Positions 32,028 to 38,887 of a stretch of 39,017 nt of DNA are shown here, one piece after another (position 1 is the stretch's first letter; each line of letters opens with the position of its first letter). Below the pieces are notes generated by a model, which worked only from the letters and a program-made list of their open reading frames with translations, did not search any database and was not told the DNA's origin. The position numbers were made by a program, and so were the translations under genes. Origin of the DNA: Gammaproteobacteria bacterium (lineage in GTDB: Bacteria > Pseudomonadota > Gammaproteobacteria > Thiohalobacterales > Thiohalobacteraceae). The stretch covers positions 1-39,017 of the forward strand of contig JACREG010000061.1 of assembly GCA_016218375.1 (NCBI GenBank), written 5' to 3'.

Positions 32028-33521
32028 TTAGAACTTCATGCCGTAGCTGACTTCGATGGAGTTCTGATCCATGCCGATCTTGGTGTCGTAACTGAACGGC
32101 GCGAATCCACCAGTACCTTGATGGGTGTACGACTGATCTTCGTAAAAGGCATGCACGTAGGTCATGCTGATTTCGTTGTATTGGCTCGGCGCATAGGTAA
32201 AGCCCAACGCCAAATGTTTCTCAACCAAACCTGGCGCCAGGATATTGAACAGATTCTGGTCGCTATCGATCGGGTTGCCGCCGACGTTCACACCACCGCG
32301 CAGCGTCCACTGACTGTTGAGTTCGTGATTGATACCCAATTTGTAGATGGTGATATCCTCCCAGCCGAAGCCCCAGCCATTATCATCACCCAGCCGACCT
32401 GCACCGGTATAAGCCCCGGTTTGCAGCACTTCCGTCAGTGCAGCAAAGAACTGGTCAGCCGTCGGCCCCTTATTGGCAATCGCGGCCACATCGCCGTACA
32501 GAATTCGCTGCACGTCGAAGGCCACCGTCGTCTGTGGATTCATCTTGACCGCGATACCCACACCGAAGTTGGCCGGAATATCGAAATCGCCCTGTTCGGC
32601 GAACAAGCCCTCGTAACGTTCAAACTCCTGCATATAGATCTTGGAGGAAGCCTGCGCGCCCAATGTGATGTTGCTGGCGACATCACCGGTCCAGCCCAGG
32701 CGCACGCCGGCACCCCAGGAATCGTCGTCACCTTTATTGGTTACATGCGCCGAGCTCGAAGAAAGCGGCTGGAACAGGCCCAGACCATAGGAACGAAAAC
32801 GCTGATAACCGATCAGCAACGACGCGACGATGGAATGATCCTGGTTGAGTTTGGTTGCAACCGTCGGGGAGATAATGACCTGCGCGAGATTCACGCCGAG
32901 CGCCGGATTCAGATTGCTGTTCGTATACAACCCGCCAAGAACCGGATCAGTCATTGCCGTAGTCGCGCCAGTGAGTTCAAGCATACCGGCGAAACCCGAC
33001 TGGAAGCCGCCGCATATGGCCGCAGTACTGGTACAACCGACTGCGGGACCAAAAGCGTCAGAGTAGAGGTTGCTGTTGTAGCGAGTATTCATGCCGCCGT
33101 TGGCTGCGATACTCAGGCCCGCTGTGATATTGCCCATGTTGAACGCGAAGCCTGCATGCGGAATCGCAAACAATGTCGCACCACTGTCGACCTTTCCGGT
33201 ATCCCGGCTCAACGGCATATTCGGCACCGCTCCACCCGTTGCTGCATCGACATCCAAACCTGTCGCATCCAAGTGCCCATCACGTAGCGGACCGAACAAT
33301 TCGATACCGCCGTCCAAGCGATTACCAATGAGCGCGATACCCGAGGGGTTGGTCGCCGGGGCCAACGAATCCTGCGCGAACGCGATACCCGCACCCGCCA
33401 TACCGCGGTTCTTGGTGCCGTAACCGATTTTGAAATAACCGTTGGTGGCATGGGCCGCCGGGGCTGCGATAGCGGCCGCGACTGCGGCAGCAACCAGTGA
33501 ACGTTTCACGCTTGCTTTCAT
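32028..33521 (-). CDS. OmpP1/FadL family outer-membrane channel 1
   Basis: 497 residues. The signal peptide ends PAAHATNG (about residue 25), and the mature protein begins with the family-type NGYFKIGYGTKNRGMAGAGIAFAQD and NPSGIALIG, which form the hatch/N-terminal region of FadL channels. The remainder alternates polar and hydrophobic residues as in a beta-barrel, and the chain ends in an aromatic (SYGMKF), the normal outer-membrane targeting signal. The family imports hydrophobic compounds; the substrate here is unknown. A good ribosome-binding site (GGAGGG) precedes the ATG. It is divergent from a second, distantly related FadL-type gene. Confidence 0.9.
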   Translation of the reverse strand: MKASVKRSLVAAAVAAAIAAPAAHATNGYFKIGYGTKNRGMAGAGIAFAQDSLAPATNPSGIALIGNRLDGGIELFGPLRDGHLDATGLDVDAATGGAVPNMPLSRDTGKVDSGATLFAIPHAGFAFNMGNITAGLSIAANGGMNTRYNSNLYSDAFGPAVGCTSTAAICGGFQSGFAGMLELTGATTAMTDPVLGGLYTNSNLNPALGVNLAQVIISPTVATKLNQDHSIVASLLIGYQRFRSYGLGLFQPLSSSSAHVTNKGDDDSWGAGVRLGWTGDVASNITLGAQASSKIYMQEFERYEGLFAEQGDFDIPANFGVGIAVKMNPQTTVAFDVQRILYGDVAAIANKGPTADQFFAALTEVLQTGAYTGAGRLGDDNGWGFGWEDITIYKLGINHELNSQWTLRGGVNVGGNPIDSDQNLFNILAPGLVEKHLALGFTYAPSQYNEISMTYVHAFYEDQSYTHQGTGGFAPFSYDTKIGMDQNSIEVSYGMKF

Positions 33522-33623: not shown

Positions 33624-33774
33624 ATAGAATCCGGTAGCAAAGGCTATGCCAGGGGTTAGCGTCGCAAATGCGTTGTATGGCCGCAACGTATTTGGCCTTG
33701 AGTATATGAAATCTCCCTCGCTTTCACCGATACTGTGCTTCAATTCAGCCCAACACCCCACAAGGAGCGTCCAC

Positions 33775-35139
33775 ATGCCAAACCCCACCCGCTTCAGCCG
33801 TCAATATCCAACCGCGCTTGCCACCTTATTGACGGTTGCCGCCAGCCAGACCCACGCGGCCGGCTTTGCGCTCATCGAACAGAGCGTCAGTGGTTTGGGC
33901 AATGCGTATGCGGGTGCCGCGGCCAGTGCCGAGGATGCCTCCACGGTGTTCTACAACCCGGCCGGGCTGATGTTCCTCAAAGGCAACCAGGTGGTCGGCG
34001 CGGGACATGTCATCGTACCGAGCGCGAAATTCACCGACTCGGGATCGACGATCAATCCGCTTGTCGGTGGCGGGGCCTTGTCCGGCGGTAACGGTGGCGA
34101 TGCGGGCAGTGCATCGCTCATTCCAAATTTCTATTATGCCAATCAGTTGTCCAATGGTTTAGTACTGGGCCTCGGCGTGAATGCGCCGTTCGGCCTGAAA
34201 ACCGAATACGACAGCAGCTGGGTTGGACGTTATCATGCCATCGAATCCGAACTCAAAACCGTCAGTATCAACCCCGTCATCGCTTACAACGCAGGTGACG
34301 ACATCGCCGTCGGTGTGGGTGTGCTCGCACAATACGCAGACGCCACACTGACCAACGCCATCGATTTCGGCACGGTCTGTCTGGGTAGCGCGCTTGCAGC
34401 GACCTGTCCCGGCGCCGGCGTTCTACCTCAGACGGCAGACGGCACAGGTAAAGTCGAAGGCGACGATTGGGGATTTGGATTCAACTTCGGCATCATGTAT
34501 TCCATCACCGATGCGAGCCGGGTGGGATTCAACTATCGATCCAAGATAAAACACACGCTCGAAGGCGATGCCGATTTCACCGTGCCCACCAGCTTCGCAA
34601 CACTCCTGGCCCTTGCGGGGAGCACGCAGTTTTCGAATACCGGCGCCGAAGCCAGTGTAACCCTTCCAGAGTCGGCATCGCTCAGCCTGTATCACGAACT
34701 CGACGATCGCTGGGCCGTTCTCGCCGACGCGACTTGGACACGCTGGAGCCGTTTCGAAGAGCTGCGCGTCAAGTTCGACAATCCCGTCCAGGCCGATAAC
34801 GTCACAGCCGAAAACTGGGATAACAGTCTGCGCTACTCGCTGGGCGTGAATTATCGGTATGACCCCCAATGGCGGCTACGCGCGGGTATAGCCTATGACG
34901 AGACGCCGGTATCCAGCGCGGCAGACCGCACCCCACGCATTCCGGACAACAGCCGGCGTTGGCTGGCCGCGGGCGCAAGTTACCGTTCGTCAGACACCCT
35001 GCATTTCGATATCGGTTATGCGCATCTGCTCGTCAGCGATGCGGCCACAAACAACACCAACTCTCTCGGCCACACGCTCATGGGTAAATATGAGTCTTCC
35101 GTCGACATCCTCGGCGCACAGGTCAACTGGATGTTCTAG
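33775..35139 (+). CDS. OmpP1/FadL family outer-membrane channel 2
   Basis: 454 residues. A signal peptide ends QTHAAGFAL (about residue 23). The mature start AGFALIEQSVSGLGNAYAGA and YNPAGLMFLKG, together with FGLKTEYDSSWVGRYHA, are close to classical FadL (long-chain fatty acid transporter). The protein ends VNWMF with a terminal Phe, as barrel proteins do. AAGGAG seven bases upstream fixes the start; in-frame codons further upstream are not protein-like. It is more FadL-like than its divergent neighbour. It may import fatty acids or other hydrophobic molecules. A terminator follows. Confidence 0.92.
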   Translation: MPNPTRFSRQYPTALATLLTVAASQTHAAGFALIEQSVSGLGNAYAGAAASAEDASTVFYNPAGLMFLKGNQVVGAGHVIVPSAKFTDSGSTINPLVGGGALSGGNGGDAGSASLIPNFYYANQLSNGLVLGLGVNAPFGLKTEYDSSWVGRYHAIESELKTVSINPVIAYNAGDDIAVGVGVLAQYADATLTNAIDFGTVCLGSALAATCPGAGVLPQTADGTGKVEGDDWGFGFNFGIMYSITDASRVGFNYRSKIKHTLEGDADFTVPTSFATLLALAGSTQFSNTGAEASVTLPESASLSLYHELDDRWAVLADATWTRWSRFEELRVKFDNPVQADNVTAENWDNSLRYSLGVNYRYDPQWRLRAGIAYDETPVSSAADRTPRIPDNSRRWLAAGASYRSSDTLHFDIGYAHLLVSDAATNNTNSLGHTLMGKYESSVDILGAQVNWMF

Positions 35140-35339: not shown

Positions 35340-35570
35340 TCAGGACTTCTTGATCAGGAAGTGGTACTTGCCACCCGCTTCCTTGGACTCCAACAAGGTA
35401 TTGCCGGTCTGCTTGGCAAACGCCTCGAAGTCCTTCACGGAACCCGGGTCGGTCGCGATGATGTGCAGAACCTTGCCGCTGGTGAGACCACCGAGGGCCT
35501 TCTTGGCACGCAGGATGGGCAGCGGGCAGTTCAGGCCGGATGCATCCAGCTCCTCGTCGAAATTAGCCAT
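35340..35570 (-). CDS. tusA: TusA-family sulfur carrier protein
   Basis: 76 residues, the usual size. TusA proteins carry sulfane sulfur on the cysteine of the CPxP motif, here Cys15 in GLNCPLPILRAKKAL. They serve tRNA thiolation and, in sulfur oxidisers, persulfide transfer to the sHdr or rDsr pathways. AAGGAG eight bases upstream supports the start. A single-domain rhodanese gene lies 151 nt upstream on the same strand, a pairing common in sulfur-oxidation clusters. No dsrE or hdr gene is in the window. Which pathway it feeds is therefore inferred from the neighbouring rhodanese and sox genes. Confidence 0.88.
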   Translation of the reverse strand: MANFDEELDASGLNCPLPILRAKKALGGLTSGKVLHIIATDPGSVKDFEAFAKQTGNTLLESKEAGGKYHFLIKKS

Positions 35571-35721
35571 GTGTAAGACTCCTTCAGATTCTCAAATTTT
35601 ATGACGTGAGTGTCCCGTGGGGGAACATATACGGGAACGGTGGAATTTAGCAGCGCTCTTATATGCCAACTGCCTGCCAAACGCAACCCTGGACAGTAGT
35701 AGCGTTGCGTCGCCGAGATAC

Positions 35722-36075
35722 TTAAGCGATGGCACTGCTCGCCGGCGGCACAACCGCACCCACGCCTTGCTGAACCCAATCCAGGATGCCGCCGCGGAGA
35801 TTGATGTACTGCCGCGTTCCGTCGCGTGCTGCCAGGAAGGCGCAAGCTTGAGCCGAACGCGCCCCGGTACGACAGTAAATCACCATCGGCCGGGTCTCCT
35901 GCTTCCAGTCCTCCGCCTTCAGCGGAACCAAATGCAGTGGGACGGTATCCGCGCCCGGAATGATGCCCTGTGACATTTCCTGGGGGGTACGAACATCCAC
36001 CAAGTGAATGCTGTCCGGAGCTTCCGCAAGGATTTTGGCCAACTCGCGCCCATCGATTTCCGGAATACCAAACAT
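35722..36075 (-). CDS. Single-domain rhodanese (thiosulfate sulfurtransferase family)
   Basis: 117 residues with no signal peptide, so cytosolic. The active-site Cys68 lies in the loop CRTGARS; the CDC25-like opening IHLVDVRTPQEM and the late YINLRGGILDWVQQG are typical of rhodanese domains. It moves sulfane sulfur onto acceptors such as the TusA protein encoded just downstream. AGGAGAGG about five bases upstream supports the start. A 20-bp AT-rich dyad lies 26 nt upstream of the ATG and could be a repressor site. It could also be called GlpE-like; the precise donor is unknown. Confidence 0.9.
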   Translation of the reverse strand: MFGIPEIDGRELAKILAEAPDSIHLVDVRTPQEMSQGIIPGADTVPLHLVPLKAEDWKQETRPMVIYCRTGARSAQACAFLAARDGTRQYINLRGGILDWVQQGVGAVVPPASSAIA

Positions 36076-36100
36076 AGACCTCTCCTACCGTAAAAATTGC

Positions 36101-36120
36101 ATATTAGGCTATCCTAATAT
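36101..36120. promoter_or_regulatory. Palindromic operator-like site upstream of rhodanese
   Basis: ATATTAGG and CCTAATAT form perfect 8-bp arms around a 4-bp centre (CTAT). The site lies 26-45 nt upstream of the rhodanese ATG, where it would overlap or follow the promoter. AT-rich dyads of this size are typical of ArsR-type repressors, some of which (BigR/SqrR) sense sulfide or persulfide; the match to that group is inference. Confidence 0.5.
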
Positions 36121-36275
36121 ATGAGCTATGTCATCCCGAGAACTTAAGCGGAAATAGCGCGGCCGGCAGATTTCTTCACCCCACACGCGCCAAAACCAAA
36201 CGCCGTCATCGTCTGCTGGCGCAGGGAACGGGCCTCGCATATTGTGGTCTTAAGCTCGCAAATCCATTCGTTGCC

Positions 36276-37757
36276 ATGAGTTTCTTTCACCGCATGCTTT
36301 CATATCCACGCCGTTTGCTGCTGCTTGGCCTGCTGTGCCTGAGTCCTTCCCTTCCAAGCCTCGCGCTGGATCTCCCCAACATCGGCGACCCCGCCGAACG
36401 GCTGATTACGCCGGATCAGGAACGCCAATTGGGCGAGGCCTTCATGCGCCGCCTGCGTCAGCAGGTTCCATTGATCGACGATCCGGAACTGAACACGTAT
36501 ATAAGCACGCTCGGCAACCGGCTGGTGGCCAACAGCGACACCCCCGGGCAACGCTTCACCTTCTTCATCGTCAAGGACTCTGCGATCAACGCCTTCGCGG
36601 CCCCGGGCGGGTTCATCGGCACGCACAGCGCGCTGATCCTGGCGGCACGCAACGAAAGCGAACTGGCGGGTGTGCTGGCCCATGAAATTGCGCACGTCAC
36701 GCAGAAACATCTGGTGCGCGCCTACGATTCCGCCAGCCGCATGGGCCTGCCGATGGCGGCGGCGCTCCTGGCGGCGATTCTGATCGGCACGCAAGACACC
36801 GAGGCCGGTCAAGCGGCGCTCATGTCGGTCCAGGCCGGCGCCATTCAGCAACAGATCAACTTCACGCGCGCCAATGAAAGTGAGGCCGACCATATCGGCA
36901 TGCAGACCTTGGCGCGATCCGAGTTCGACCCACGCGGTATGCCGGGATTCTTCGAACGCCTCCAACAAAGCACGCGCCTGTATGGCGATGGCCTGCCCCC
37001 GTTTTTAAGCACGCACCCGGTCACCACCGACCGTATCGCCGAATCCATGGCGCGCGCCGAACAAACGCGCCCGCAACATATCCAGGACAGCCTGAATTTC
37101 TACCTTGCGCAAGCCAAGCTGCGCGCACTCACCACGGCGGATGCCAAACAGGCCGTTGCCTATTTCAACCAACCCAAAACCGATCCCCCGTTGCCGGAAG
37201 CCGCGCGCGAATACGGACATGCCTTGGCGCTGGCGCGTGCCGACGACTATGCGGCGGCCCGGACCATCCTCACCCGTCTCGGCAAGACCGATCCCGACCG
37301 GATCGCCTATCCACTGGCCTTGGCACAACTCGATCTGAGCGCGGGTCGCAACGATGCGGCGCTGGAACAGTACCGCACGCTGCTGCGCCTCTACCCGACC
37401 AACGCCGTGCTGGTGGAAGGCTATACCCAGGCACTGTTGAATACCGGCCGCCACGGCGAAGCCCGCCAACTCCTGGAAGAGGCGCGCCGCCGTCAGGCAC
37501 AGCCCGACCCGGGCCTGTATCTGCTCCTGGCCAAGGCCGCCACCGGCATGAAACGGGAAGCCGATGCCCATGAGGCCATGGCCGAATACTATTATCTGAA
37601 CGGCCAGACCTTCGAAGCCGTCGAACAACTGACGCTGGCCAGCCGCATCCCCGGCCAGGATTTTTACCAAGCCTCGCGTATCGAGGCCCGGTTACAAGAA
37701 CTCGAAGCGATCGCACTCGAAGAAAAGGCCAAGGCAGACGAAAACGAGCCTCGCTGA
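36276..37757 (+). CDS. bepA: BepA-type periplasmic M48 metalloprotease with TPR domain
   Basis: 493 residues. A signal peptide (RRLLLLGLLCLSPSLPSLA, ending near residue 31) directs it to the periplasm. The M48 protease domain (about 45-265) has the zinc motif HEIAH at residues 136-140 and the third ligand Glu in NESEADHIG. The C-terminal half (about 270-480) consists of TPR-like helical repeats. In E. coli BepA (YfgC) works with the BAM complex in LptD folding and quality control. No ribosome-binding site is evident before the ATG at 36276; a second ATG at 36294 would still give a full signal peptide. It is transcribed alone. Confidence 0.9.
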   Translation: MSFFHRMLSYPRRLLLLGLLCLSPSLPSLALDLPNIGDPAERLITPDQERQLGEAFMRRLRQQVPLIDDPELNTYISTLGNRLVANSDTPGQRFTFFIVKDSAINAFAAPGGFIGTHSALILAARNESELAGVLAHEIAHVTQKHLVRAYDSASRMGLPMAAALLAAILIGTQDTEAGQAALMSVQAGAIQQQINFTRANESEADHIGMQTLARSEFDPRGMPGFFERLQQSTRLYGDGLPPFLSTHPVTTDRIAESMARAEQTRPQHIQDSLNFYLAQAKLRALTTADAKQAVAYFNQPKTDPPLPEAAREYGHALALARADDYAAARTILTRLGKTDPDRIAYPLALAQLDLSAGRNDAALEQYRTLLRLYPTNAVLVEGYTQALLNTGRHGEARQLLEEARRRQAQPDPGLYLLLAKAATGMKREADAHEAMAEYYYLNGQTFEAVEQLTLASRIPGQDFYQASRIEARLQELEAIALEEKAKADENEPR

Positions 37758-37993: not shown

Positions 37994-38377
37994 ATGCGGC
38001 AATTCTCGAGCATCCTATCCACCGCCACTTCCGTAGCCGCGCTGTTGGGTAGCCTGATGCTGGCACCCGCAATGGCGACTGCTGCCGAAGAAGCGAAAGC
38101 AATGACCCCCATCGAGGAAGGCAAGGAAATCGCGTTCGATCGCAAGAAAGGCAATTGCCTGGCCTGCCATCAGATCGCCAAGGGAGAACTTGCGGGCGAC
38201 ATCGGCCCGCCGCTCGTGGGCATGCAGACCCGCTTCCCGGACAAGACCAAACTGCGCGCGCAAATCTGGGACCCCACCAAGGCCAACCCCAACAGCATGA
38301 TGCCGCCGTTCGGCCGTCACAAGGTTCTGTCGGAAGACGAGATCGACAAAGTCGTTGAATTCATCTACAGCCTCTAA
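37994..38377 (+). CDS. soxX: Sulfur oxidation c-type cytochrome SoxX
   Basis: 127 residues. A signal peptide ends AMATAAEE (about residue 30). Heme c is bound by CLACH (Cys55, Cys58, His59), and the distal Met ligand is Met103 in SMMPPFGRH, the usual SoxX arrangement. With SoxA it forms the SoxXA cytochrome that joins thiosulfate to the carrier protein SoxYZ through a disulfide. GAGGAGG six bases upstream supports the start. It is followed by soxY after 33 nt; a promoter lies about 120 nt upstream. soxA is not in the window and may lie beyond soxZ. Confidence 0.95.
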   Translation: MRQFSSILSTATSVAALLGSLMLAPAMATAAEEAKAMTPIEEGKEIAFDRKKGNCLACHQIAKGELAGDIGPPLVGMQTRFPDKTKLRAQIWDPTKANPNSMMPPFGRHKVLSEDEIDKVVEFIYSL

Positions 38378-38410: not shown

Positions 38411-38887
38411 GTGACTGACATGAAACGCAGAACGCTCCTGAAAGGCACCCTGGCGCTAGGCGCATTGGGTATGGCATTCAGTGCCGGCCTGTTAACACCG
38501 CGTGCGGCGCTCGCCGCCTGGCCCAAAGACGCCTTTGACGCCAAGACCGTCGACGACGCGCTGAAGAGTTTGTTCGGTTCCGCGCAACTCGAAGGCAGCG
38601 ACAAGATCGTATTCAAACAACTGCCGGAAATCGCCGAGAACGGCGCAGTGGTCCCGGTATCCGTCGAAGTCGCGATGGACGGTGTCGAATCGATCAGCAT
38701 TATCGCCGAGAAAAATGCCACGCCGTTGACATCGTCCTATACGCTCGGCGCCACGACCGAACCCTTCGTCGCCACCCGCGTCAAGCTCGGCAAAACCACC
38801 AGTGTGATCGCGGTCGTCAAGGCCGGCGGCAAACTCTACAGCGCCGGCAAGGAAGTCAAAGTCACCATTGGCGGTTGCGGCGGCTGA
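38411..38887 (+). CDS. soxY: Thiosulfate oxidation carrier protein SoxY
   Basis: 158 residues. The Tat signal is KRRTLLKGTLALGALGMAF, with cleavage near ARAALAAW (read as PRAALAAW). The C-terminal swinging arm GGCGG carries Cys156, to which sulfur intermediates are covalently attached during the Sox cycle. GTG at 38411 is eight bases from GAGGAG and is preferred; ATG at 38420 would be too far from it but gives an equally good signal peptide. SoxY pairs with SoxZ, whose gene follows after 54 nt. Confidence 0.95.
   Translation: MTDMKRRTLLKGTLALGALGMAFSAGLLTPRAALAAWPKDAFDAKTVDDALKSLFGSAQLEGSDKIVFKQLPEIAENGAVVPVSVEVAMDGVESISIIAEKNATPLTSSYTLGATTEPFVATRVKLGKTTSVIAVVKAGGKLYSAGKEVKVTIGGCGG

Follow-up and report, generated by a model that had tools for sequence, protein, structure and literature searches.

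SqrR of Rhodobacter capsulatus is an ArsR-type regulator with two conserved cysteines, and its box is quoted as ATTC-N8-GAAT in the available part of PMC9774250. According to the same part, YgaV of Escherichia coli has a footprint near the ygaV start site and also binds at katG, where no such box is present. SoxR and sHdrR of Hyphomicrobium denitrificans are ArsR-type repressors of sulfur oxidation. They respond to sulfane sulfur, have two conserved cysteines, belong to an alphaproteobacterium and act on sox and sHdr genes; a consensus box for them was not found in the available parts of the two reports (PMC10451225, PMC12423496). For SqrR, SoxR and HlyU, the accessible text of PMC10451225 and PMC10509353 describes that sulfane sulfur bridges two cysteines and that the DNA is then released. 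BigR is a further relative, known from Xylella, Agrobacterium and Acinetobacter; a BigR box was not found in the available part of PMC5823870. The type of regulator is already known. How sulfur-oxidising bacteria sense the arrival of oxidisable sulfur is little known, as the abstract of PMC10451225 states.

A palindrome upstream of a rhodanese gene is read here as the operator of a dimeric BigR/SqrR/YgaV-like ArsR repressor, most likely of the protein ArsR-A, for which we infer repression and a sulfane-sulfur signal (probability about 0.75). The site has an ATTA-N8-TAAT core with the spacing of the SqrR box as quoted; the letters beside the spacer differ. Unlike in the SqrR system, the gene behind the site serves sulfur transfer in sulfur oxidisers, and the candidate regulator has its gene at another place in the genome. 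The likeness to YgaV lies in the ygaV promoter, which holds the two best matches of a matrix for the site within 10 kb, in the region where the available text places the YgaV footprint. In contrast to ygaV, the gene of ArsR-A has no good copy in its own promoter. BigR is the best match of ArsR-A in the PDB and a strong match in NCBIfam, and bigR-like operons of relatives bear the motif (L040, L315, L322), whereas that of L318 has no good copy. ArsR-A differs from BigR in a score below the model's cut-off and in a predicted regulon that is dispersed, not one operon.

The window is the whole stretch of DNA that was analysed, with a length of 39,017 nucleotides. Its features are listed in Table 1 together with those of comparison loci.

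Table 1. Positions of features in the window and in comparison loci (given as locus:positions)
Feature	Position	Strand	Remarks
FadL-like outer membrane protein gene	32028-33521		
FadL-like outer membrane protein gene	33646-35139		
tusA, sulfurtransferase	35340..35570	-	Pfam PF01206, 6.8e-24
Single-domain rhodanese, 117 aa	35722..36075	-	CRTGARS loop; Pfam PF00581, 1.6e-14
Candidate palindromic operator, ATATTAGG-CTAT-CCTAATAT	36101..36120	.	Core ATATTAG-N6-CTAATAT; kept 5' of rhodanese in relatives
M48 peptidase	36276-37757	+	
soxX	37994-38377		
soxY	38411-38887		
Candidate operator before ccoN, family genomes	L003, L094, L095, L100, L107, L109, L116		
Single-span membrane protein, 29-30 aa	L002:1383-1472, L098:1377-1469, L099:1379-1471, also L121, L128		MFTF.NF..VIVIAL...; operator just 5'
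DsrC-like proteins of unusual length, 214 and 263 aa	L101:833-1477, L092:540-1331		3' of operator
Protein of ~150 aa	L259:744-1190		3' of operator
ArsR domain fused to rhodanese domain	L007:1429-2088		By eye

The preliminary description had named a 20-bp AT-rich dyad with perfect 8-bp arms and a 4-nt spacer, 26 nt before an ATG. Both statements were confirmed by reading the positions back. The segment reads ATATTAGGCTATCCTAATAT, with perfect arms of 8 bp and a spacer of 4 bp. On the minus strand, the rhodanese starts with its ATG at 36075; the dyad is separated from it by 25 nt and comes closest at -26. The dyad is intergenic, between the rhodanese and the divergent M48 peptidase. Perfect 8-bp dyads with a spacer of 0-8 are unremarkable alone: the window has 12, compared with 8.3 +/- 3.3 in 20 simulations. 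AT-rich arms make such a dyad rare, with 0.15 expected and this one present. ATATTAGG-N4-CCTAATAT has a single match in the window at up to three mismatches, compared with an average of 0.01 over 100 shuffles. That the dyad goes beyond chance is decided by its conservation, not its symmetry. The conserved motif is ATATTAG-N6-CTAATAT and leaves out the G and the C at the inner ends of the dyad arms. Its core agrees with the ATT[A/C]-N8-[T/G]AAT spacing of BigR/SqrR/YgaV-type operators. A search for a sigma-70-like promoter at the dyad found none; repression is therefore proposed by analogy.

The rhodanese is most likely the gene controlled by the candidate operator. The M48 peptidase is probably no more than an additional target because the distance between site and rhodanese stays similar in most of the 80 genomes treated below. 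tusA follows the rhodanese at a distance of 151 nt, in the same orientation, and may or may not be co-transcribed with it. The minus strand of the gap between both genes (35570-35722) has a TTGCGT ... TATAAG-like stretch, which recurs in relatives and by eye resembles a promoter of its own for tusA. Thiohalobacter MAGs are among the best named matches of the rhodanese, and a Thiohalobacter strain (FOKN1 locus tags) has a rhodanese/TusA pair after soxBAZYX, according to the accessible part of PMC6504805. The sox genes, earlier said to be a few kb away, are indeed close: soxX and soxY begin 1.9 kb from the dyad. An operator function for these sox genes was dismissed, with no further copy in the window at up to three mismatches.

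Conservation upstream of the rhodanese was examined within the family and beyond. Among 11 family genomes, the best match to the motif within 200 bp 5' of the rhodanese had no mismatch in three, one in one, two in four, three in one, four in one and six in one. L017 and L018 are the family loci with four and three mismatches. G006 has no site within these 200 bp and one about 330 bp upstream. In a wider scan of the collection, the best 80 named loci, many of them from MAGs, were compared. The motif occurred at up to three mismatches within 150 bp 5' of the rhodanese in 65 of 80 named genomes versus 2 of 80 for the reversed control, so that the conservation in related species raised in the preliminary description was found. 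The best match had no mismatch in five of these loci, one in 18, two in 27, three in 15 and four or more in 15. In most of the 80 genomes, it starts some 30-75 bases 5' of the stretch by which the rhodanese was matched; for distances here and at the ArsR genes, such matched stretches serve as the reference, not proven start codons. The titles include Thiobacillus, Sulfuricella, Thiothrix, Sedimenticola and Allochromatium, which are sulfur oxidisers. The 80 loci are not independent, since several appear to be nearly the same; for L163, the upstream sequence is limited to about 37 bp. The rhodanese alignment omits L024, which has an internal stop, L026 and L027. Two Allochromatium, one Thiocystis and two Thiohalocapsa genomes encode ArsR-A, yet have 5-6 mismatches before this rhodanese.

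The motif recurs across the genomes. A genome-wide scan and a look at co-occurrence with sulfur genes had been suggested, and both gave a positive result. At up to two mismatches, the 11 family genomes had 78 matches compared with 11 for the reversed control (69 versus 10 in eight chosen genomes, 9 versus 1 in the other three), the sites lying before ccoN, soeA/sat and DsrC-like genes, among others. A ccoN-type site was present in 8 of the 8 chosen family genomes; ccoN itself was confirmed alongside by tblastn in seven, all but G010. A site before ccoN would put the cbb3 oxidase under sulfur control. Five of the 8 genomes have a site before a SoeA-like molybdopterin oxidoreductase, the gene being confirmed in all five, with sat on the other side in L097. 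A site before the membrane protein of 29-30 aa occurred in 6 of 8; the peptide was found in five and not in L110. The neighbourhood of this site includes rpoH or, in L110, a copper-ATPase-like gene. The protein may resemble CcoM and may be a small cbb3 oxidase subunit. DsrC-like proteins are encoded downstream of the site in G004 (two), G008 and G010. The 263-aa DsrC-like protein holds two DsrC stretches.

The genome of the window has nine motif matches with a plausible target for six: the rhodanese, ccoN, the 29-aa protein, an 84-aa membrane protein also present in G001, an NnrU-like protein and a YfhL-like ferredoxin. The NnrU-like and YfhL-like proteins were named by eye, with a YfhL model match in L243. 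No clear target gene was found for the sites on contigs C80, C130 and C196. In other families, 40 chosen regions from 10 genomes had sulfur globule proteins, SoxX, YfhL and CoxB near the site, as well as FadL-like porins, rhodaneses, a weak sulfur-oxygenase-reductase relative and genes without a known sulfur role; these are examples from the chosen regions and the matches listed, not a count. Ten representatives were scanned with protein models. CcoN, SoxX, YfhL and CoxB pass the NCBIfam cut-offs, and the sulfur globule protein, two DsrC-like proteins and Sat pass those of Pfam or NCBIfam. The SoeA-like representative scores only as a molybdopterin oxidoreductase, and the last of the ten reaches 21 bits with the sulfur oxygenase/reductase model, compared with a cut-off of 400. 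Target genes beyond these ten were named by eye. The protein of ~150 aa in L259 has this 21-bit match and no Pfam family; proteins of L262 and L132 were matched to it by eye.

The identity of the binding protein is approached through the promoters of the ArsR genes themselves. A matrix was built from rhodanese sites only, using 64 of the 65 with up to three mismatches; one was dropped for being too near the end of its locus. Among 15 BigR/SqrR/YgaV-like ArsR genes of relatives, which form a group with 32-41% identity to ArsR-A, 11 have an upstream copy scoring at least 13.9, located ~40-170 bp 5' of the ArsR domain. Several genes of this group are followed by rhodanese, MBL, SQR-like or CoA-persulfide-reductase-like genes, as named by eye. 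Paired copies 15-16 bp apart stand before five of the BigR/SqrR-like genes (L312, L313, L322, L051 and L314). In 10 kb around ygaV of E. coli K-12, the two best matrix matches fall within the ygaV promoter, at a distance of 16 bp; their overlap with the YgaV footprint in the accessible part of PMC9774250 is by position only. The earlier assignment to a BigR/SqrR-like ArsR regulator thus largely holds, with the motif at these promoters and the spacing of the SqrR box, and the dyad is very probably an operator of this family.

The window was said to encode no such regulator, and on its contig neither HTH_5 nor HTH_20 gave a match at E <= 0.001. A search for a BigR/SqrR homologue yielded one, ArsR-A, elsewhere in the genome (L006, contig C161). 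It has 106 aa from the start chosen, with Cys37 and Cys103, and lies before another rhodanese gene. By eye, it is the only HTH_5/HTH_20 match of the genome with the BigR-type cysteine pair, in which one cysteine is ahead of the helix-turn-helix and the other close to the C terminus. The best PDB matches are the biofilm growth-associated repressor 3pqj (3.9e-18), YgaV and HlyU, and in the three alignments both cysteines align with those of BigR, YgaV and HlyU. The NCBIfam BigR model NF040642 gives 2e-22 and 79.1 bits, below the equivalog cut-off of 155, so ArsR-A is related to BigR without being filed as BigR. The gene neighbourhood is conserved: of 57 distinct loci, 54 have a rhodanese after ArsR-A, 33 have grx, 39 secB and 35 a divergent gpmI, the loci of ~3 kb each undercounting farther genes.

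Other candidates in the genome were set aside by eye. L005 adjoins an arsenate-reductase-like gene, L007 is a fusion with a rhodanese domain and L008 has no cysteine near the C terminus. The HTH_20 match L335 is an Rrf2-like protein, and L337, another such match, is NtrC-like. Since the genome is 86% complete, another regulator may be absent from the assembly. Autoregulation of ArsR-A via the motif was judged weak, with no good copy in its own promoter: the matrix score is 3.3 in this genome and the median over 57 loci is 6.6, higher than shuffles at -2.5 and well below the 21.2 of the rhodanese sites, with 6 of 57 reaching 13.9. Many ArsR-A promoters (L058-L087, L281-L310) have a conserved block TTATTATTGTATAATG, which is not a good operator copy.

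Motif excess and ArsR-A go together among 95 relatives, in a correlation in which kinship and the sulfur-oxidising lifestyle are not factored in. In the 46 with ArsR-A at 69% identity or more, the motif at up to one mismatch had 158 matches versus 14 in the control. It had 7 versus 0 in the three genomes with a 52-62% match, 19 versus 4 in the ten with only a 32-39% match and 32 versus 15 in the 36 without a match at E <= 1e-12. Four of the 46 had no motif match at this threshold. Among the 80 rhodanese-bearing genomes, 46 of 50 tested have ArsR-A at 72% identity or more; co-occurrence within this set is uninformative because nearly all tested genomes have the regulator. It is present at that identity in 14 of the 15 genomes with four or more mismatches at the rhodanese, and 3 of 35 tested genomes with the rhodanese site, all MAGs, are without it, so that within this set the regulator does not follow the site.

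ArsR-A probably is the binder of the dyad. It is unlikely, though worth weighing, that a second and closer BigR/SqrR paralogue binds the site while ArsR-A binds the other block in its own promoter and has a different role. Strong autoregulatory copies are far more frequent in the 32-41% group than at ArsR-A at the same score (11 of 15 versus 6 of 57), and a paralogue could be missing from the incomplete assembly. Against this, G000-G004, G006 and G008 have the ArsR-A orthologue as their single match at E <= 1e-12, yet the motif exceeds the control in each, and the motif excess is seen in genomes with ArsR-A. The recognition helix of ArsR-A, SQSNISQHL, also resembles by eye SQSALSQHL and SQSSISQHL of motif-bearing members. 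Paralogues with 46-61% identity to ArsR-A (L324-L330) were rejected as binders, the site being found at one of seven. These proteins share some of the same genomes, and six of the seven that were read have the cysteine pair. An unrelated regulator of sulfur and respiratory genes, e.g., for oxygen or redox, with a motif that resembles the BigR/SqrR box by accident, is quite improbable. Terminal oxidase genes are often under oxygen regulators, and ccoN and coxB are among the targets of the site; most ArsR-A promoters lack the site and the genome also encodes the Rrf2-like protein mentioned above. The position of the site directly 5' of BigR/SqrR-like genes, the doublets at five of them and the copies in the ygaV promoter speak against such a coincidence, as does the spacing shared with the SqrR box as quoted in PMC9774250.

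Least credible, to the point of near dismissal, is a dyad that acts as RNA, i.e., as terminator, attenuator or riboswitch-like hairpin, or that is a chance palindrome. Such readings have in their favour that the two arms match perfectly and that perfect dyads of 8 bp are no rarity in the window. Rfam gave no match in 35500-36400 and no terminator-like site was found in 35550-36320. The arm letters are kept while the pairing is often broken, e.g., in ATATTAG..CTAATTT. Conserved arms with broken pairing are the behaviour of a protein-DNA site, and a terminator or other RNA element was rejected on these three grounds. A chance palindrome is excluded by the conservation.

With ArsR-A as repressor, the following mechanism can be proposed. 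A dimer with its cysteines as thiols would sit on ATATTAG-N6-CTAATAT just 5' of the rhodanese start and would keep the RNA polymerase off the rhodanese promoter. When sulfane sulfur rises, as polysulfide or persulfide, sulfur atoms would bridge Cys37 and Cys103, and the dimer would release the DNA. The rhodanese, perhaps together with TusA, would then be made and carry sulfur into oxidation. In this genome, ArsR-A may also control the other genes with a site, that is ccoN and the genes for the 29-aa membrane protein, the YfhL ferredoxin and the NnrU-like protein. In relatives, its control may include soeA-like, DsrC-like, soxX and sulfur globule protein genes.

A wider claim has in our judgement slightly better than even odds: in Gamma- and Betaproteobacteria, ArsR-A would be a conserved master regulator that responds to sulfane sulfur and governs lithotrophic sulfur oxidation through one dispersed 20-bp operator. 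If true, sulfur transfer by rhodanese, TusA and DsrC-like proteins and storage in sulfur globules would be coupled to cytoplasmic sulfane sulfur. The same would apply to the oxidation of thiosulfate and sulfite by SoxX and Soe/Sat and to the cbb3 and CoxB oxidases, so that respiration by the cbb3 oxidase would be tied to the sulfur supply. The site may thus mark a common control switch of sulfur-oxidation and respiration genes in related sulfur oxidisers. The full-text literature covered, which includes few subscription papers, yielded no dispersed regulon of sulfur oxidation and respiration for this ArsR group. The operator is legible from DNA, which makes the regulon predictable for each genome, and it gives context to small unknown genes that bear it.

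Two divergent FadL-like outer membrane protein genes adjoin tusA in the window and are without the operator. Unlike this pair, FadL-like genes of G058 and G092, identified by eye, have an operator nearby.
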